DNA of 30,252 nt from a virus, in IMG/VR virus record IMGVR_UViG_3300037493_002005, positions 1 through 30,252 of that record; one strand, written 5' to 3'. The notes beneath the pieces are model-generated. The model was given only the letters and a program-made list of their open reading frames with translations. It made no database searches and was not told the DNA's origin. Numbering within the stretch: the stretch's first letter is position 1; each line of letters starts with the position of its first letter. A program made the translations under genes and the position numbers. Positions 5,763-30,252 of this stretch are shown one piece after another.

Positions 5763-8700
5763 TTAACGGATTTGTGTATAGTTAAGGCGTAAAAGTACGT
5801 TAACGCCCGTATAAGGATAGCCAGCGCCGCCCGAGGTCACTTTAAAACGGTGCTCGCTTGTATCGGTTGCGGTATCAATTGTAAACGTAAGCGTTAAGCC
5901 CGTGCCGCTATTCGCTGAGCTTATTGAAATAGGAGCCGACGCGGCCGTTACCCCCGCGATTTTTGACATATAAAACGAGCCCGTTTGGTAAATAAATAGC
6001 CCGTTAACGTCGCTCGCGTGTAGTAAATAATCCACAACCCACGTTGTCGAATCGGGAATAGATAAACGAGCCGCGACATCATTCGAGGGGAATAGCTCGA
6101 GCACCTGAGAAACCGCCGTATAATTTCGGGCGTTTGAAAATATAACCGTACCCGCTTGAGCCGCCCCGAAATCCCCCGAGGTCGTACGGTCCCCGCCTCC
6201 GAAATGGAACCCGAAAACGTTGGCGTAAGTATTACGGCCGAGAATCGTCGTCCCCTTATTTGCCCCCTCAAGTTTTAAGGTTGATCCAACGGCAAGCGTG
6301 GCGGCGTTGCCGTCCTCAATAGTTATTTTTTCGCCAGCCAAAACGCTAAATGATGTTTCAGGACTAACGATAGCGTTGGCCGTTGCGGCTAAAACGTTGG
6401 TCGGCCTGTTTACGGATGGGGTTCCAAGCATAATAGCCGCCGCCGCGCCTCCGCCTCCTGGGCCTCCTGGCGTATCGATACCCTCACCAAAAGCCAAACA
6501 TCGGCCCCCGTCGACCTCGCTCCACGTATACCCGTAACGCTCGCAACATATTTGATTTGCGGGCTGAGGGTCACCGTTAAAATCCTCGAATGTTACTTCC
6601 TGAACTTGGCCCGCCGTCACGGTTACCGAAACGGGAACTAATGAGCAATCGGGAACGTCCTCGAGCACTTTTAAAAGGGTGAGTTTTGTCGATTCCTGAA
6701 GCCCGATTTTATAATCGGAAATTTCCAGAATTCGCCAATAGCTATCTTTTATCCAATAGCGATTGTTAAACCCAAACGAAAGAACGTCGCTAAAATCGAG
6801 CGCCAAATGAGCCTCCATTATTCGAGCCTGTGGCGAATAAATTCCATTTAAATACGGCCGCCAATATTCGTTGAATAGATTCCGAAAAGGTGGGGCGGTT
6901 ATCGCATGCAAAGGCGTTTCGGGTGCAAAGTTTAAATCAAAGTCCGCGACGCTTGCATCGACGCTTGAATAATTATTAAAAATATTAATCGCCGTAGCCG
7001 CGACGTCCTGAGCGTAATCGTCGAAAAGTTGCACCGTTGCAATATCAGCAAGGAATAAAAAGCGAAGATTCGGGATAACGAACTCGCGGGCGGGGTTAAT
7101 GAATTTCGGAATTACGATAGCGCTCCCGTCGATGTAAGTCGCTGGCGTGCTTTCGGCGGTGAGTTGGATTTTCAGGTCACCGTTAGCAAACTCGTTAGGC
7201 AAAGCGGTTGCGCTCGTTTGGTAGCCATTCAATATTTGAAACCGTCCGTAAACGCGCCCGTTATCTTGAAAAAACTTGCTGAATTGATCGCCGCCGCCCT
7301 TATAACTAAAATCGAAATTACGCTTTTGAAATTCAGTCGTTGGGCTGAGCGTCACGTCCTTGGAAATATCGAGCTTTTGCGTCCAATTTTCCGTTATTCC
7401 TGAATTTATATAATCCTTAATCGGTACTATTAAAACCTCGCGAGGTACGTCGCGGCTCGGAATCATTACGCCAGCGTGCATATTTAAAACGTCCCGAATA
7501 AAATCTATCTTTTTGATAATTGGCGCGTTGGCCGTAGCGTCGAAAGTATCCCCGTAAAGCCTGAAATAATCCACCAATTCCCAACCTGAGCCCGTTAACG
7601 GGTCGTTTGTCGCTGAGCCGATGAATAAAGGCGTGGCGGGAAAGCTCGAATGAGGTCGCATTTCATCCCCCGCCGCCATAAATAGCGGGTCCGTAGTAAA
7701 TTGAATGGCTTGGATTACCCCGTTATTTTGGTCCGTTCCTGAAACCGCGATTTCCAAGTTAACGACGGTCGTGTAAGCGATAGCGCTCGTATATCTTCTA
7801 AACGTAATTCCCGCAGTATTTGCCCCAAAACTCGCCGTAGGTTGGACGTGAGCGAAAAATCGAAAAGTATAAAACCCGTCATTCGGCGCCACGAAACCCA
7901 AAGCGCCATAATTACCCCCGTTATCTACGAAAACCCCGAAAGGAATTCGAGCGTTATCCACGACGGGCGTAGTTGCCACGCCTAAGCCCGCGTTAAAATA
8001 AATATCTGAGGCCGTTTCCTCAGTTATTACGCGCTGGCTGTTTATCCACGGGACCCAATAGCCTGTTAGAATCGATTCTAAGGGCGTTGGAAGCAAAGTA
8101 AAACCCGCGTCCGTTATAATCCCCTCGAATAATTCCCAAGCGTTTAAAAACGGGGTTAAATCAGCGGCGTAAATCGGTTGCTCGGAATTACTAACGGGCC
8201 TCGAATTCGGGCTCCCGAGTTGGTCCCAATTTTGGCCGCGATCAACTAAGCCCCATTGTACCGAATTTCCGAGGTCCAAATCTACGAGGCTCCAAATGTC
8301 GCCCGAGGTGTAATTAAATGAAACGCCGATATTCCAAATGATTAAACTGTTTGCAACGTCGACGCTCGTTATTACGCGGTTAGTTATATTCGTTCCGTTA
8401 TCAAATCGAATTGTAAAGCCAATCAACTCAGGCGTTACGGGTAACGGGTAAAAGAAATCAGTTTCGCCAATATTTACGTTGGTAGCCATTACCCCCGTTT
8501 CGATAATAAAATCGTCTTGGGTGATTCCGTAGTTTATAACGTGGTTATAACTCGGGAGCCTCGAAATCGTCCCGAGTAAGCCGTCCCCAATCGAACGGAA
8601 TAAATCGGGCGTTTCACCGTAGAACGTAACGAGAATATCCGTTAACAAATCATTTTGCCGAAAGGTTTTCATTACCCGCAAATGTCCCCGCACAATTGGA

Positions 8701-15208: not shown

Positions 15209-15670
15209 CTAATCGTCCAATTGACCCTCGTTAATTTCCGTTTTCAGCCAGCTAATGAGGTCCGACCCTCGGCACGATACGCAACCAACGCGGCTCCCTG
15301 TCATCTTAAACACCCATTCCCCAAGGTCGCGAACCGTTTGGCCTGTTATTGAGCCTTGAGACGGTAGCCCCGAAATGAAGGCCCGTAGTAATTCGGTTTC
15401 CTCATCCGAAAGCCGATAGCGCCCCCATTTATTAATTGGGCAACGGTATAACGAGTATTTCGTTTTGCGTGGCATGTAACAGCCACAAAGCCGAGTTTTC
15501 CGCCGATAGTGGGTTATCTTGTTATTTTCCTTAGCCTCGGCCAAATCCTCGGGGCTGAGCTTGTTTCCTATTATGATAGTGCCGCAACTTAACGTCGAGG
15601 GCTTAAAGTGTTTACAGGCCTTGCATGTCGCTAATCGCTGGGCCCGAATGGTGGGGGGTACGGTGAACAT
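15209..15670 (-). CDS. Cys-rich, probably zinc-binding protein
   Basis: The 153-residue protein has two Cys clusters: C16-x2-C19-x9-C29 with C62-x-C64-x12-C77, and C130-x2-C133 near the C-terminus. RCPINKWGRY follows the first cluster, a pattern I have seen in phage zinc-ribbon-like proteins of unknown role. Between the clusters is an acidic/basic helix (about 40-60). The start lies 59 bp inside the preceding sigma-like gene, and no later Met lies before the Cys cluster, so the overlap appears genuine. Co-transcription with a sigma-like gene hints at a regulatory or DNA-binding role, but this is only inference from position. Confidence 0.6.
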   Translation of the reverse strand: MFTVPPTIRAQRLATCKACKHFKPSTLSCGTIIIGNKLSPEDLAEAKENNKITHYRRKTRLCGCYMPRKTKYSLYRCPINKWGRYRLSDEETELLRAFISGLPSQGSITGQTVRDLGEWVFKMTGSRVGCVSCRGSDLISWLKTEINEGQLDD

Positions 15671-16163
15671 TTTTTCGAATTTTGGTTAATGCGTTTTCAA
15701 CTAACTTATAAAGGGTCTTAATCGGGATTCCTGTTTTGGCGCTCGCGTCCTTATAACTGAAATCGGGAAGCGCGTAGAGCCTCAAAATCACGGCATCCAT
15801 TTGCGGCATAAGTGAAATGTAGGCGTCGACATATTCGTTATTTAACCGCGATCCAAGCCATGGGGCTAACGGTTCCTCGAGATGCTTAACGCTGTTTTCG
15901 TCCCAATTCCTGAGGAACTTACTAAACTTAACATGGTAACGGCTCGAGCGGTCGATAGCCATTAAGAACAAAGCGCGGTTAACGTAAAATTCCAAAGTAC
16001 CCTCAGCCGCTAGGCGCTCGGCTTTCTCGCGTTGGTTTTCGAGAATCTTTAAAAGGGTTTCCGAGAGGAGGTCGTCGCCGCGGTGGGGGTCGCTCATTAA
16101 TCCCCTCGCGTACCTGAGCCATTTGGGATATAATCGAGCCGTTTCAGTTTCCAAAGTTTTCAC
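15612..16163 (-). CDS. Sigma-70-like transcription factor (ECF type)
   Basis: First gene of the late unit, about 183 residues. It contains a region-2-like helix block (LYPKWLRYARGLMSDPHRGDD followed by LLSETLLKILEN), a middle helical part, and a region-4 helix-turn-helix (PDFSYKDASAKTGIPIKTLY, then KLVENALTKIR). This is the two-domain layout of ECF-type sigma factors; in phages such proteins may redirect host RNA polymerase to late promoters. No ATG lies before the region-2 block. I chose the GTG at 16161-16163 because the TTG at 16190 falls within the divergent promoter. The next gene overlaps the 3' end by 59 bp. Late-gene activation is inferred. Confidence 0.7.
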   Translation of the reverse strand: MKTLETETARLYPKWLRYARGLMSDPHRGDDLLSETLLKILENQREKAERLAAEGTLEFYVNRALFLMAIDRSSRYHVKFSKFLRNWDENSVKHLEEPLAPWLGSRLNNEYVDAYISLMPQMDAVILRLYALPDFSYKDASAKTGIPIKTLYKLVENALTKIRKNVHRTPHHSGPAISDMQGL

Positions 16164-16167
16164 CCCG

Positions 16168-16199
16168 TTTTGAATGTAGCAAAAATTCAACTATATTTG
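16168..16199 (+). promoter_or_regulatory. Early promoter P1 (Bacteroidota type)
   Basis: TTTTG at 16168-16172 and TATATTTG at 16192-16199 are separated by 19 bp and match the TTTG / TAnnTTTG elements of Bacteroidota primary-sigma promoters. Transcription would start near 16206 and enter the first early gene at 16232. Confidence 0.7.
16175..16192. promoter_or_regulatory. Operator-like site O1
   Basis: TGTAGC, six A/T bases, then TCAACT. The first half-site is identical to that of the fuller sites at 18688 and 19098; the second half agrees at four of six bases. It ends at the first base of the P1 TATATTTG element. Confidence 0.5.
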
Positions 16200-16220
16200 C
16201 CGCCGTAAATATAAACCAAA
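16188..16220 (-). promoter_or_regulatory. Probable divergent promoter for the late unit
   Basis: On the minus strand TTTG (16220-16217), a 21-bp spacer and TATAGTTG (16195-16188) fit the Bacteroidota promoter with one mismatch in the -7 element. The two -7 elements of the divergent promoters overlap, so RNA polymerase could occupy only one at a time. It would give a short leader before the GTG at 16163. Confidence 0.5.
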
Positions 16221-16231
16221 TTCATAACGTT

Positions 16232-16366
16232 ATGACATTTAACGAAATATCGGGTTTATTCCTAACCCACCTCAGCGCGGCCGTCCTCGGCTTTGCGTTC
16301 GGACATTATCGCGGCTGGCTATCTGAGTATAAACACCAGGAACAAAAGGAGGCCGAAAATGAGTAA
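16232..16366 (+). CDS. Tiny membrane protein (44 aa), first early gene
   Basis: A 44-codon gene about 25 bp downstream of the predicted P1 start. It encodes MTFNEISGLFLTHLSAAVLG, then FAFGHYRGW and a charged tail (EYKHQEQKEAENE). One hydrophobic segment covers about residues 8-24. Its end overlaps the next start by eight bases (ATGAGTAA), a common coupling in this unit. No family recognised. Confidence 0.6.
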   Translation: MTFNEISGLFLTHLSAAVLGFAFGHYRGWLSEYKHQEQKEAENE

Positions 16367-16613
16367 CCCTAGCGCACTTGAGAAATTATTTACTGAATTG
16401 AGCGAATACGCCGACGGCGATAATTTTGTAATTCCCGATTCCGCTTTTCACGATCGATTTAAACGCGGCAAATTACGCGAAGCCCAGCAACGGGCCGACT
16501 CGTTTCATTTTGGATTTAACGCCGCAATTAATACCCTCCAACAAACGAGCGAACGACTTTCGGACCCGCTTTTGCAAATGCTAACTCAGCAAATAAAAGG
16601 AGGTGATCAATGA
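16359..16613 (+). CDS. Small early protein (84 aa), unknown function
   Basis: The start is the ATG at 16359, inside the preceding gene. The open frame extends further upstream but only from a non-ATG codon within that gene. The protein is mostly helical (MSNPSALEKLFTELSEYADG; later LREAQQRADSFHFGFNAAIN and LLQMLTQQIKGG) without Cys or membrane segments. The helix with Y/F-xx-GF/Y-xxA resembles part of the 87-residue protein at 16748, so the two may be distant paralogues. It ends with ATGA overlap on the next gene. Confidence 0.6.
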   Translation: MSNPSALEKLFTELSEYADGDNFVIPDSAFHDRFKRGKLREAQQRADSFHFGFNAAINTLQQTSERLSDPLLQMLTQQIKGGDQ

Positions 16614-16747
16614 AACTCGAGGAATTAAAAACCAGAATTATGAGCGGCCAACAGCAATATTACCACCGCGAGCAACTTATCGAGCTACTCAATAAGTTGG
16701 ATACCCCAAAACAACCCGAAAAAAATAACGTTTTAAGCCTGTTTTAA
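16610..16747 (+). CDS. Small early protein (45 aa) ending in a clamp-binding-like motif
   Basis: The gene begins with ATGA overlap and ends directly before the next ATG. The 45-residue protein is helical and ends KNNVLSLF. LSLF at the extreme C-terminus resembles the QLSLF motif by which bacterial proteins bind the DNA polymerase sliding clamp, although the initial Gln is replaced by Val. The first part (MKLEELKTRIMSGQQQYYHR) gives no family. A host-clamp contact is an inference from five residues only. Confidence 0.6.
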   Translation: MKLEELKTRIMSGQQQYYHREQLIELLNKLDTPKQPEKNNVLSLF

Positions 16748-17011
16748 ATGAGCAACGAAAACCAAACCCCAATTAACGAATGGGTCGATAAGACCCGAAA
16801 AAAACTCAATTCGAACCCCTTGAGCCTTTCGGCTATGGCTTACCGTGAATTCATAAACGAAAGCCCCGAGTTGATTGTAAAAGAAGCCCAATTAATTCGC
16901 CAAGCATACCTCGAGGGGTATCGCGCTGCCTTTGAGGATTTAAAAAACCATTATGAAACGAAAGGAAATGACGCGCCTATCGAGCGAGGACTTGAGGGCT
17001 TTACGCCTTGA
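16748..17011 (+). CDS. Small early protein (87 aa), unknown function
   Basis: Starts immediately after the upstream TAA. The 87-residue protein is charged and helical (INEWVDKTRKKL, then REFINESPELIVKEAQLIRQ and AYLEGYRAAFEDLKNH). The EGYRAAF helix is like FGFNAAI in the 84-residue protein. No catalytic pattern or Cys. It overlaps the next small frame by 59 bp. I cannot assign a function. Confidence 0.6.
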   Translation: MSNENQTPINEWVDKTRKKLNSNPLSLSAMAYREFINESPELIVKEAQLIRQAYLEGYRAAFEDLKNHYETKGNDAPIERGLEGFTP

Positions 17012-17126
17012 AACGCTCGCAGCTTTTCCCGCGCCCGAAAATCAGGCCTCAAAACTGAGGCTAATTTTAAAACGAATAGAAAACGAACTCGACGTTAGAA
17101 ACCCCCTCCGACATGAACTCCGATAA
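16953..17126 (+). CDS. Small overlapping gene (57 aa) bridging two early genes
   Basis: An ATG-initiated frame overlaps the 3' end of the 87-codon gene by 59 bp and the start of the HTH gene by 14 bp, and fills the 101-bp gap between them. The product is helical and basic (TRLSSEDLRALRLETLAAFP, later KLRLILKRIENELDV). A second ATG at 16968 would give a 52-residue form. Protein-like composition in a unit where every other gap is coding makes it plausible; no family recognised. Confidence 0.5.
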   Translation: MKRKEMTRLSSEDLRALRLETLAAFPAPENQASKLRLILKRIENELDVRNPLRHELR

Positions 17127-17298
17127 ACTCAATAACCTAATTAGCGAAACCTTTGGAACCCGAAACGAATTCGCCCTCAAAATGAAGGTTTCACGTTGGA
17201 CGGCTTACCGTTGGCTCGATAACCCCGAAAGGATGGATTTAAAGGCCTTAAAACGCCTCGCAAAGCTCACGGGCAAACCCTTAACCGAACTCGTTTAA
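17113..17298 (+). CDS. Cro/C1-type helix-turn-helix regulator
   Basis: The 61-residue protein is almost wholly a DNA-binding domain: MNSDKLNNLISETFGTRNEF, the turn ALKMKVSRWTAYRWLDN (recognition helix about residues 27-35) and the stabilising helix DLKALKRLAKLTGK. Such small Cro-like proteins usually bind inverted repeats as dimers. It is the only obvious Cro-type factor here, and the operator-like sites at 16175, 18688 and 19098 are candidate targets. It overlaps terL by one base (TAATG). Confidence 0.7.
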   Translation: MNSDKLNNLISETFGTRNEFALKMKVSRWTAYRWLDNPERMDLKALKRLAKLTGKPLTELV

Positions 17299-18593
17299 TG
17301 GTTACTTTTTTACCCAAGCAAATCGAATGTTTGAACGCCCTCGGGTTGGACTCACCCGCCGAGGTCGTTTTATTTGGGGGCGCCGCTGGCGGGGCAAAGT
17401 CGTTCACGGGTTGCGCGTGGCAAATCCAACGCCGTTTAAAATACCCGAAAACGAGGGGGCTAATTGGGCGCTCCAAACTTGACACCCTGAAAAAAACAAC
17501 GCTAAAAACGTTTTTTGAGGTCGCTCAGTTATTCGGGCTCCGAGCTAATGAGCACTATCAGTTCAATGCTCAATCGAACGTTATAACGTTTTACAACGGC
17601 TCGGAAATCATTCTTAAAGATTTGTTTTCGTATCCCTCCGACCCCTCGTTTGATTCGCTCGGGTCGCTTGAAATTACCGACGCCTTTATCGACGAATGTA
17701 GCCAGGTGAGCAAAAAAGCCGTTGACATCGTTAGAAGCCGTATCCGTTATAAACTGCGAGAATTCGATTTAAGCCCGAAAACGTTGTTAACGTGTAACCC
17801 GTCGAAAGGTTGGTTATATAACGAAATATACGCCCCGTGGCGCGCTCAGAACCTCCCGAGCTTCATTCAATTCATACCCTCAAGGGTTAGCGATAATCCC
17901 CACCTCCCCGCCACTTACGCCGAGACTTTGGCGCGGCTTCCCGAGATGGATCGTAAACGCTTGCTTGAGGGTGATTGGGATTACGACGAAACCGCCGACG
18001 CCCTTTTCCTTACCGACGACATCCTGAGGGCTTTTCGTGAGCCCCAAAACGACGGGGAGCTGTATATAACGGCCGACGTTGCGCGGCTTGGAAAGGATAG
18101 GACCGTTATCGCCCTTTGGCGTGGCCTTTCGCTTATCCATATAACCGAACTCAGAAAAAAGAAAATCGACGAAACCGCCGCCGTTATTCGTGCAATGGCG
18201 GACCACCATAAAGTAAAACTTTCGAACGTCCTGGCTGATGCCGACGGGCTGGGCGCGGGGTTAGTGGACGTTCTGAAATGCCGCGAATTTCGTAACGGCT
18301 CAAGGGCCACTAAGCCCGAGCGGTTCGTTAACCTCAAGGCGGAATGTTTTTTTAAGCTCGCCGAATTTATCGAACTCAATAGAATGGTTTTCCCTCAGGC
18401 CAATAGGGACGTTATCGTTAAGGAACTCGATTTAATCCGCCGCAAAAACCCCGATGGGGACGGAAAACTCGCAGTAACAGGAAAGGAGGAAATCCAACGA
18501 ACTCACGGTATGAGCCCCGATTACGCCGACGCTATCGCGATGAGGATGTATTTCGAGCTTTTTCCCAATTATGGGCGCTATTCGTACGCCTGA
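17298..18593 (+). CDS. terL: Terminase large subunit
   Basis: The 431-residue ATPase/nuclease drives DNA packaging. Motifs: Walker A-like GGAAGGAKS at 27-35, Walker B with catalytic glutamate ITDAFIDE at 126-133, coupling motif LLTCNPS at 163-169, then the RNase-H-like nuclease with ITADVARLGKDRT (first Asp D260), a second acidic motif (VLADADGLGAGLVD) and the conserved SPDYADAIAMRM near the C-terminus. Length is normal for the group. It is cotranscribed with early small genes and a Cro-like gene on the plus strand, whereas the small subunit lies in the late unit on the other strand. This would make the two subunits appear at different times unless transcripts overlap. Confidence 0.92.
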   Translation: MVTFLPKQIECLNALGLDSPAEVVLFGGAAGGAKSFTGCAWQIQRRLKYPKTRGLIGRSKLDTLKKTTLKTFFEVAQLFGLRANEHYQFNAQSNVITFYNGSEIILKDLFSYPSDPSFDSLGSLEITDAFIDECSQVSKKAVDIVRSRIRYKLREFDLSPKTLLTCNPSKGWLYNEIYAPWRAQNLPSFIQFIPSRVSDNPHLPATYAETLARLPEMDRKRLLEGDWDYDETADALFLTDDILRAFREPQNDGELYITADVARLGKDRTVIALWRGLSLIHITELRKKKIDETAAVIRAMADHHKVKLSNVLADADGLGAGLVDVLKCREFRNGSRATKPERFVNLKAECFFKLAEFIELNRMVFPQANRDVIVKELDLIRRKNPDGDGKLAVTGKEEIQRTHGMSPDYADAIAMRMYFELFPNYGRYSYA

Positions 18594-18600
18594 GCCGAAT

Positions 18601-18680
18601 TAACATTTTTTAACATTTCGCAAAAGCCCTATTTTAACAAATTTTAACATAATGACTTAAATTTTAACATTTTTTAACTT
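18601..18680. repeat. AT-rich TTTTAAC repeats, helically phased
   Basis: Six copies of TTTTAAC or a close variant lie in 80 bp after terL. Four fall on an exact 10-bp grid (18631, 18641, 18661, 18671), so they face the same side of the helix. Two adjacent copies at 18632-18651 are matched at 19 of 20 bases in inverted orientation at 19071-19090. Candidate iterons of a replication origin or activator sites upstream of P2. Confidence 0.6.
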
Positions 18681-18687
18681 TTTTACA

Positions 18688-18705
18688 TGTTGCAAATATG
18701 CTACA
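18688..18705. promoter_or_regulatory. Operator-like inverted repeat O2
   Basis: TGTTGC, six A/T bases, GCTACA. It is an inverted repeat with one mismatch, and overlaps the P2 -7 element by four bases. It shares half-sites with O1 and O3. Confidence 0.6.
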
Positions 18706-18709
18706 TTTG
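18702..18709 (+). promoter_or_regulatory. Promoter P2 -7 element
   Basis: TACATTTG fits TAnnTTTG and lies about 55 bp before the start codon at 18764. No clear TTTG sits 19-21 bp upstream, where an AT-rich stretch replaces it, so the promoter may need an activator or may be weak. Confidence 0.5.
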
Positions 18710-18763
18710 TAGTGTCCAAAAGGGACGAAAGTTTTTTGAAATAACCCTTTAATAATTAACACT

Positions 18764-19012
18764 ATGAAAAGAGAATTTACAACGGTATTACTTGAGCTCA
18801 AGCGTAAAGAGGACGGCGAAGAGTACAGCGGCGATCCAATCGACTATATTACGCGCGCCACTAAAAAGGCCGCCATTAACGCCGCAAAAAAAGGAGTACA
18901 AAGGCCCGATGTAATAAGTGCTTGGGTATATGAGGAGGGCGAAATGGACGAGCCTTATCGATGCTACATCTACAAAGGCGACGCCGACATTACAGATCAA
19001 ACAGGATGGTAA
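18764..19012 (+). CDS. Unknown early protein (82 aa) inside the repeat region
   Basis: The 82-residue protein starts MKREFTTVLLELKRKEDGEE and continues with a helix of Ala and Lys (TRATKKAAINAAKKG) and a beta-rich C-terminus with AWVYEEGEMDEPYRCYIYKG. I recognise no family. It is the only gene between the two inverted AT-rich repeat blocks and has its own promoter-operator on each side. A role in origin function or in regulation would fit this position, but nothing in the protein itself shows it. Confidence 0.65.
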   Translation: MKREFTTVLLELKRKEDGEEYSGDPIDYITRATKKAAINAAKKGVQRPDVISAWVYEEGEMDEPYRCYIYKGDADITDQTGW

Positions 19013-19070
19013 AAAGAGCGGGGGCGAAAGCCTCCCTTTTTAACCTAACTTATTGAACCTCAATAACCGA

Positions 19071-19090
19071 TTTGTTAAAATTTGTTAAAA
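19071..19090. repeat. TTTGTTAAAA tandem repeat, inverted copy of the 18632 repeat
   Basis: Two perfect head-to-tail copies of TTTGTTAAAA. Together they are the reverse complement of 18632-18651 with one mismatch. They lie just upstream of O3 and P3, the same order as the repeats before O2 and P2. Confidence 0.65.
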
Positions 19091-19097
19091 ATTAGGA

Positions 19098-19115
19098 TGT
19101 AGCAAAAAAGCTACT
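19098..19115. promoter_or_regulatory. Operator-like inverted repeat O3
   Basis: TGTAGC, six A, GCTACT: an inverted repeat with perfect 5-bp arms (GTAGC/GCTAC) one base before the P3 -7 element. It is the clearest of three such sites. Confidence 0.65.
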
Positions 19116-19116
19116 T

Positions 19117-19124
19117 TATATTTG
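19117..19124 (+). promoter_or_regulatory. Promoter P3 -7 element
   Basis: TATATTTG is a perfect TAnnTTTG, 23 bp before the ATG at 19148. The region 19-21 bp upstream is taken up by O3 rather than a TTTG element. Confidence 0.55.
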
Positions 19125-19147
19125 CTAAACAATTAACAATAGAAGCA

Positions 19148-19342
19148 ATGTACACACAACCAACAACAATCGAAACCCTTAAAAAAAACGAAAAAGTAGT
19201 TTCAATCATTCGCGTACAAAAGGAAGGAACCAAACGAGTTTTTTTCTTTCCTAAAACATCGGAAGGTTTTAGACTTAACCGCACGATGTACGCCGCCAAA
19301 TGGGAAGCGATCAAATTGGCTAAAATGTACCTCAATAATTAA
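19148..19342 (+). CDS. Small basic protein (64 aa), unknown function
   Basis: The 64-residue protein (MYTQPTTIETLKKNEKVVSI, later KEGTKRVFFFPKTSEGFRLN and a helical end) follows P3 directly. It is Lys-rich and mixed beta/alpha with no metal or catalytic motif. First gene of the transcript that carries the recombination and replication genes. Function unknown. Confidence 0.65.
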   Translation: MYTQPTTIETLKKNEKVVSIIRVQKEGTKRVFFFPKTSEGFRLNRTMYAAKWEAIKLAKMYLNN

Positions 19343-21699: not shown

Positions 21700-22203
21700 A
21701 TGAAAAAAAACAACACGTTCAATCGAATTCACAAAATTTTCGACATCTTGAGCCGAGGCGGATTTTTTAGCGCTCAGGAAATTGCCGAAATAACAGGCGA
21801 GCCAAAGGGTACAATCAGCCCGCTATTAAGCGCGTTAGTTATTACGAAAAACATTATTAACGATCGCGGGCACGGTTACAAATGCGATTATTTCCATAAG
21901 GATTTAAAACAAATCGCTCAAGACGTGGCAAAGCATGAAAAGAACCGCCGTGAAATAATTCAGGGAAAACGAAAAGCCAAAATGAAAAAGTTTGAAAACA
22001 TCGTGAATCAGGTCGCGAATGAAACGCCAGCTCAATTAAGTATCGACATTAAAGAAAATTTTAAAGAGTTGGCCGAAACGCTGAAAAATAAAAAGTGGGA
22101 TTTTCAGCGCGACGATTCATTTCATATTGAGGAGGCGGTTAAGCTGTTGAAAACTCGCGGCTATAAAGTACTCGCCCCCGTGACTGAGTTTAAAGAAATT
22201 TAG
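21700..22203 (+). CDS. Winged-helix DNA-binding protein, unknown role
   Basis: The 167-residue protein has an N-terminal winged helix (about 8-60: RIHKIFDILSRGGFFSAQEI, then AEITGEPKGTISPLLSAL and the wing INDRGHGYKCDY), a basic middle (KHEKNRREIIQGKRKAKMKK, about 78-97) and a C-terminal helical domain (about 100-167). No enzyme motif is seen. It lies just before the leader RNA and replication genes, so it may be a regulator or a replication initiator, and could be an alternative ligand for the operators at 18688 and 19098. Confidence 0.6.
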   Translation: MKKNNTFNRIHKIFDILSRGGFFSAQEIAEITGEPKGTISPLLSALVITKNIINDRGHGYKCDYFHKDLKQIAQDVAKHEKNRREIIQGKRKAKMKKFENIVNQVANETPAQLSIDIKENFKELAETLKNKKWDFQRDDSFHIEEAVKLLKTRGYKVLAPVTEFKEI

Positions 22204-29724: not shown

Positions 29725-30106
29725 TGTAAATAATATCGTCGTTAATGGTTATCGTAGGTACGTCGTAATAAATTGTCGAGCTCTTTAAATCGAGCCAACC
29801 GATACGGCAAAGGCCAACGACCGCCGCGTTAGTTGGGTCTAAATTTACGGCTGAATTTTGGCCGTAAACATAGTATCGATAGCGTCCTGGCAGCGTTAGC
29901 CCGAACGTCGTTACGGTTAATTGGGTTATTCGTTGGTTTTCGATTACAATCGTAGGGACTTGGGCGAGCTCCTCGCCAGCGGTGGAATTTTCCTCATGAA
30001 TTAAAATAAACAAATAATGGGTAAAAGCGCCCGCGAAATATTGCCGCGATTCGTTCAAACTTAAATATAAAGTTTGCCCCGCCTGATTTGTATTTAAATA
30101 ATTCAT
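29711..30106 (-). CDS. Conserved structural-block protein (131 aa)
   Basis: The 131-residue beta-rich protein begins MNYLNTNQAGQTLYLSLNES, then RQYFAGAFTHYLFILIHEEN, and contains YRYYVYGQNSAVNLDP. This family is frequent next to portal or tail genes in Bacteroidota phages and prophages as I remember it, without an agreed function. It overlaps the portal start by 14 bp. In the circular genome it lies directly after the terminator following the probable major tail protein. Possibly a virion decoration or connector component. Confidence 0.6.
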   Translation of the reverse strand: MNYLNTNQAGQTLYLSLNESRQYFAGAFTHYLFILIHEENSTAGEELAQVPTIVIENQRITQLTVTTFGLTLPGRYRYYVYGQNSAVNLDPTNAAVVGLCRIGWLDLKSSTIYYDVPTITINDDIIYNGNP

Positions 30107-30115
30107 CGTTTTACA

Positions 30116-30150
30116 AAAAAGGGGCGAGGTTTAACGCCCGCCCCCGTTTT
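30116..30150 (-). terminator. Second copy of the terminator at 40-74
   Basis: Identical in sequence to the hairpin at the left end because of the circular overlap; in the real molecule it exists once, between the probable major tail protein gene and the 131-residue gene. Confidence 0.75.
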
Positions 30151-30176
30151 AAAATATAGAACCCCTTTAACGAATA

Positions 30177-30252
30177 TTATTGCACTACGGCAATTCCCGC
30201 GAAATTATCGAAAGGAACCGAAGTAAAAGCCTCAAGGAAATCGGGTTGTCCT
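30177..30252 (-). CDS. Probable major tail protein, 3' fragment (duplicate of left end)
   Basis: The last codons and stop of the gene at 101-646 are repeated here only because the window runs past one full circle. The two base differences from the left copy leave the amino acids unchanged (Asn AAC to AAT; Gly GGT to GGA). Confidence 0.9.
   Translation of the reverse strand, partial: GQPDFLEAFTSVPFDNFAGIAVVQ

Follow-up and report, generated by a model that had tools for sequence, protein, structure and literature searches.

An 18-bp dyad at three promoters of a Bacteroidota phage, the likely operator of its own Cro-like protein

The closest described counterparts of the locus presented here are the Cro-CI systems of phages lambda and P22, in which small proteins of the Cro/C1 fold are associated with palindromic operators of about 17-18 bp, A/T-rich at their centre and located inside the early promoters. 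A protein of this kind and an operator-like dyad of this size and position also occur in the present locus, for which graded affinities and autoregulation, two further properties of the lambda and P22 systems, are proposed from the sequence. In contrast to lambda and P22, the sites consist of single operators instead of triple arrays, with a sigma-like gene facing the weak one; in addition, neither an integrase (PF00589) nor an S24-type CI partner (PF00717) was found in any of the 13 records searched (0/13), and a temperate switch has been rejected on this ground. With respect to the protein fold, the CI and MOR proteins of TP901-1 and the c2 repressor of P22 share the same helix-turn-helix (HTH) fold as the model built for the Cro-like protein, the closest solved structures being TP901-1 CI (Z 8.9) and P22 c2 bound to its operator (Z 7.8), but they differ by a sequence identity of 12-18% and by their role in the switches that govern lysogeny in temperate phages. 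For the phages of Bacteroidota, descriptions of operators and repressors are scarce. According to the large terminase, the nearest named phages, both with Bacteroidota hosts, are Flavobacterium phage 11b (46%) and Cellulophaga phage phi10:1 (44%), which differ by another gene order around the terminase and have no annotated sigma gene there. No similar DNA was found in the named phages, no phage record gave a tblastn match to the Cro-like protein, and the literature search yielded no account of this operator.

Layout of the genome and position of the dyads

The window, i.e., the whole stretch of DNA analysed, corresponds to a complete IMG/VR virus record (G000, 30252 b; positions 1-30,252). 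Its first and last 176 bp (1-176 and 30077-30252) are near-identical, with two mismatches; although no exact end repeat was found, this repeat makes it probable that the genome is complete, either circular or terminally repetitive. The phage presumably infects Bacteroidota bacteria. A plus-strand block extending from 16.2 to 25.7 kb contains small genes, the Cro-like gene and the genes for the large terminase, a YqaJ recombinase, a DnaB helicase and NinG, and a minus-strand block runs from the sigma-70-like gene (16.16 kb) through the genes for the small terminase, the tail and the head, then past the ends of the record to those for the portal and lysis; the terms early and late, as used for these blocks, are assumed from their gene content. 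The relevant features are the following:

15612..16163, minus strand: gene for a phage-encoded sigma-70-like factor, heading the late operon; GTG start near 16163, frame open to a TTG at 16190
16170..16172, plus strand: -33 TTG of promoter P1, 19 nt 5' of the -7 box
16175..16192, plus strand: dyad 1 (weak), TGTAGCAAAAATTCAACT, at about -29 to -12 of P1
16192..16199, plus strand: -7 box of P1, TATATTTG
16206..16213, minus strand: -7-like box of PM, TATATTTA, candidate promoter for the sigma gene and the late operon
16232..16366, plus strand: first small gene of the P1 operon, called from its sequence, with a homologue in locus L011
17113..17298, plus strand: Cro-like HTH gene, proposed regulator; 61 aa, recognition helix SRWTAYRWL
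17298..18593, plus strand: gene for the large terminase subunit (terL), in the P1 operon with the Cro-like gene
18688..18705, plus strand: dyad 2 (perfect), TGTTGCAAATATGCTACA, at about -26 to -9 of P2
18702..18709, plus strand: -7 box of P2, TACATTTG, overlapping the right half-site of dyad 2
18764..19012, plus strand: small cargo gene behind P2, no family match
19098..19115, plus strand: dyad 3 (one mismatch), TGTAGCAAAAAAGCTACT, at about -31 to -14 of P3
19117..19124, plus strand: -7 box of P3, TATATTTG
19148..19342, plus strand: small cargo gene behind P3, followed on the same strand by recombination and replication genes

The octamer TAnnTTTG is the flavobacterial sigma-A -7 box, located at -12 to -5, and the promoter positions listed above follow this flavobacterial numbering (PMC9723704). 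A preliminary description of this DNA had reported the three dyads together with boxes at 16192, 18702 and 19117, and all of these coordinates and sequences were recovered, including the match of the right half of site 1 at 4 of its 6 positions. Compared to TGTWGC-N6-GCWACA, the sites at 16175, 18688 and 19098 display 2, 0 and 1 mismatches, respectively, and each of them overlaps a TAnnTTTG box or sits 1-2 bp from one, the dyad-to-box spacings in the window being, from the shortest to the longest, 14, 17 and 19 bp. The same description placed the motif at all three early promoters; the dyads do occur at all three, but the P1 operon includes the large terminase gene and is thus not purely early. 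No good -33 TTG was seen at P2 and P3 in the window.

Statistics and conservation of the motif

Under a first-order Markov background, 0.0, 0.1 and 1.8 sites are expected per window at 0, 1 and 2 mismatches, so that sites 2 and 3, the one perfect and the one single-mismatch dyad observed, both at promoters, lie far beyond chance. Two-mismatch sites also occur inside genes, at 7027 and 28303, and the mismatch count alone does not single out site 1. A symmetric matrix was built from the relatives, the 18-mers of the window itself being left out of the training set; it ranks the three dyads first to third in the window, with scores of 26.9 (18688), 21.6 (19098) and 15.5 (16175) followed by 8.9 for the next site; the score of site 1 also exceeds the best of 60 shuffled windows (14.1). 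The matrix scan suggested in the preliminary description accordingly detects no equal-scoring site inside genes. When the search of whole records was relaxed to TGTWKC and 2 mismatches, the counts stayed at the level of the controls, and for this reason no sites of two-mismatch quality are claimed outside promoters.

Eighty related loci, all from uncultured contigs, were gathered via the large terminase, the closest 45 of which share 85% identity or more and cover 492 kb. All of the dyads with at most one mismatch in these closest loci (45/45) are located at promoters, mostly just past terL, and are accompanied by 43 exact TAnnTTTG boxes and 2 variant ones; none was found off promoters in the 492 kb, and the dyad is thus conserved among related phages, a comparison which the preliminary description had called for. 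At the first promoter of the relatives, the left half TGTAGC is almost invariant, 17-18 bp 5' of the P1 box, and the right half is degraded (TCAACT, CTAACA, CAAACA). Among the 31 loci possessing both sites, the P1 site is worse than the P2 site in 28, equal in 3 and better in none, the relaxed -7 pattern of this comparison giving a spacing of 14 for some P2 sites whose true box lies at 19 (the spacings quoted here are those of exact boxes). The weakness of the first site, previously noticed in a single genome, is therefore a conserved property.

The Cro-like protein as candidate regulator

The most satisfactory reading, which is considered likely, is that the Cro-like protein encoded by the phage at 17113-17298 uses the 18-bp dyad as its operator and is an autoregulated repressor, whose binding, dimerisation, repressing activity and timing we infer. 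The protein matches the Pfam HTH_3 profile with an E of 8e-4 (19.8 bits, under the cut-off of 23) and gives weak profile matches to a PHROG transcriptional regulator (E 2e-4) and to 3bs3 (E 0.005). Its AlphaFold2 model (pLDDT 91.6) consists of a compact HTH domain made of five helices (residues 3-13, 17-24, 28-36, 43-53 and 57-60), which resembles over its whole length CI, MOR, P22 c2, SinR and CylR2; as modelled, the protein has the Cro/C1 fold. No cellular homologue was confirmed among the genome contigs searched.

The Cro-like protein occurs all through the 45-locus group wherever its slot is covered, and in more distant loci as well. Among 69 distinct first-promoter regions, TGTWGC precedes the first promoter in 47 of the 50 loci with the gene versus 4 of the 19 without it, a co-occurrence whose Fisher value (4e-9) is overstated since the loci are related. 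Two of the four gene-less loci with the motif (L098 and L105) are contigs ending before the Cro slot, and two of the three gene-bearing loci devoid of the strict motif possess TGTAGAAAAAAAACTACA (L074) or AGTAGCAAAAAAACCACT (L021); in L075 and L076, TGTTGC occurs near the first promoter and no Cro-like gene is detectable. Among the more remote relatives (39-47% identity), the first gene after the dyad-bearing promoter is the Cro-like one: L180 displays TGTTGCAGAATAGTGACA followed by TATCTTTG, with the gene 35 nt further on, and L074 displays its site followed by TACATTTG ahead of the gene. The same pattern, with the gene first after the site, is written in other letters depending on the lineage, namely TGTTGCAGAATAGTGACA in L180, TGTAGCGAATAAATGACA in L177 and TGTTGCACCTTTTAGTCA in L187. 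In the window, dyad 1 is located at P1, upstream of the Cro-like gene, i.e., inside the promoter of the candidate regulator's own operon. Residues S27, R28 and Y32 of the helix are invariant, and no clear covariation of the recognition helix with the half-site was seen, SRHTCYRW standing beside both TGTAGC (L026) and TGTATC (L044). In a cousin clade (L056-L073, terminase 65%), no Cro-like gene is detectable and several promoters bear other palindromes (TGATTT-N5-AAATCA, GCACAAT-N5-ATTGTGC); where the gene order is listed (L058, L060, L072), the Cro slot is occupied by a 202-aa protein, that of L058 (L058:3345-3953) containing a DnaA C-terminal DNA-binding domain (PF08299, E 8e-9).

Other explanations of the dyad have been weighed. 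It is unlikely that the Cro-like protein activates P2 and P3 from a dyad located in the spacer, as MerR does, or that it represses P1 and activates the other promoters. The dyad does occupy the promoter spacer at P2 and P3, which have no good -33 TTG in the window, and its varying distance to the box fits an operator, with activation possible at these two promoters; however, the dyad overlaps the -7 box of P2, its position differs by 5 bp between promoters, a -33 TTG occurs 19-21 nt upstream in many relatives, and the model suggests a protein devoid of any activation domain beyond the HTH fold. The winged-helix protein (21700-22203), the second candidate of the preliminary description, is likewise encoded by this phage and is of the HTH type, matching IclR/MarR-like proteins weakly, but it is very unlikely to bind the dyad: its gene is distant from all three sites and occurs in few loci, with 27-82% identity, and its HTH part varies, in contrast to the nearly constant dyad. 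Being patchy and divergent, and not following the dyad, it was rejected as the binder, and the Cro-like protein appears favoured by both co-occurrence and gene position. Since many bacterial regulators recognise TGT...ACA palindromes, the dyad might also be the site of a host regulator, e.g., of the CRP/FNR type, exploited by the phage, which is highly improbable because the usual CRP and FNR sites measure 16 and 14 bp, not 18, and because the presence of the dyad tracks the phage Cro-like gene, even in distant relatives where the gene comes right after the site. Finally, the shared sequence might belong to the core promoter, as a variant recognised by RNA polymerase or the phage sigma factor, and not be an operator. 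This reading would account for the nearly invariant TGTAGC before the P1 box but is extremely unlikely, given that the spacing to the box elsewhere ranges from 14 to 19 bp, that the second half at P2 and P3 is a true inverted copy and that the sigma gene also occurs in relatives without the dyad.

As an autoregulated repressor, the Cro-like protein would very probably bind the dyad as a dimer spanning the DNA that separates the -33 and -7 elements, so that the host RNA polymerase would be kept off the promoter. It would be made from P1, whose operator associates one good and one degraded half-site, and P2 and P3 would carry near-perfect operators. From this distribution of strong and weak sites it is predicted that the accumulating protein should shut P2 and P3, and hence the downstream cassettes, first, and that P1, which serves its own operon and the large terminase, would be turned down last, at higher concentration. 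This scheme designates one defined protein with its putative site and predicts an order of affinities, which makes it directly testable.

A putative face-to-face promoter pair and exchanged early genes

Dyad 1 adjoins the minus-strand box of PM and would thus be located within two overlapping promoters that point towards each other: P1 and the candidate promoter PM would start near 16204 (plus strand) and 16201 (minus strand), respectively, PM serving the sigma gene and a late operon of about 20 kb. In 28 of the 28 loci examined, the minus strand carries a PM-type box with at most one mismatch at a distance of 33-39 bp from the start of the dyad, and an exact TAnnTTTG occupies this position in L074, L177, L179, L180, L185 and L186. 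Since P1 and PM would overlap, the polymerase could not use both at once, and we infer that the regulation of P1 may set the moment at which the sigma gene and late block are transcribed.

The operator-promoter unit located past terL is followed by a variable gene, the 50 first genes downstream belonging to 22 families with no detectable similarity between families; the window contains two such units in tandem, each with one small gene. Sequence comparison thus indicates a conserved regulatory unit behind which the gene is exchanged. This hypervariable early-gene slot is observed in L003-L046, L082 and L174-L190, and at 18764-19342 in the window; it is worth mining for anti-defence or host-takeover genes, and the dyad offers a sequence tag to find both the early promoters and the slot in dozens of uncultured phages. 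A broader scheme, put forward tentatively and rather doubtful as a whole, would be that the Cro-like protein, by shutting P1, frees PM, a single weak operator then controlling the passage from early to late expression in a phage that apparently does not integrate, and that the post-terL operator-promoter serves as an exchange slot for early cargo genes. If true, any newly acquired cargo gene would come under the same operator control.

Some additional sequence elements also deserve mention. The words TTTTAACA and TGTTAAAA are repeated in an 11-bp phase upstream of P2 and P3 (18600-18682 and 19073-19094), and possibly represent an origin or the sites of a second regulator. At the same place, the cousins L030, L031 and L082 exhibit TTATCCACA and TTTTCCACA words resembling DnaA boxes. 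In the clade with reversed replication genes, TGTCTATCTCTGTC occurs directly 5' of TATATTTG as a conserved promoter element (L050:8798, L052:7027, L053:11629 and others).
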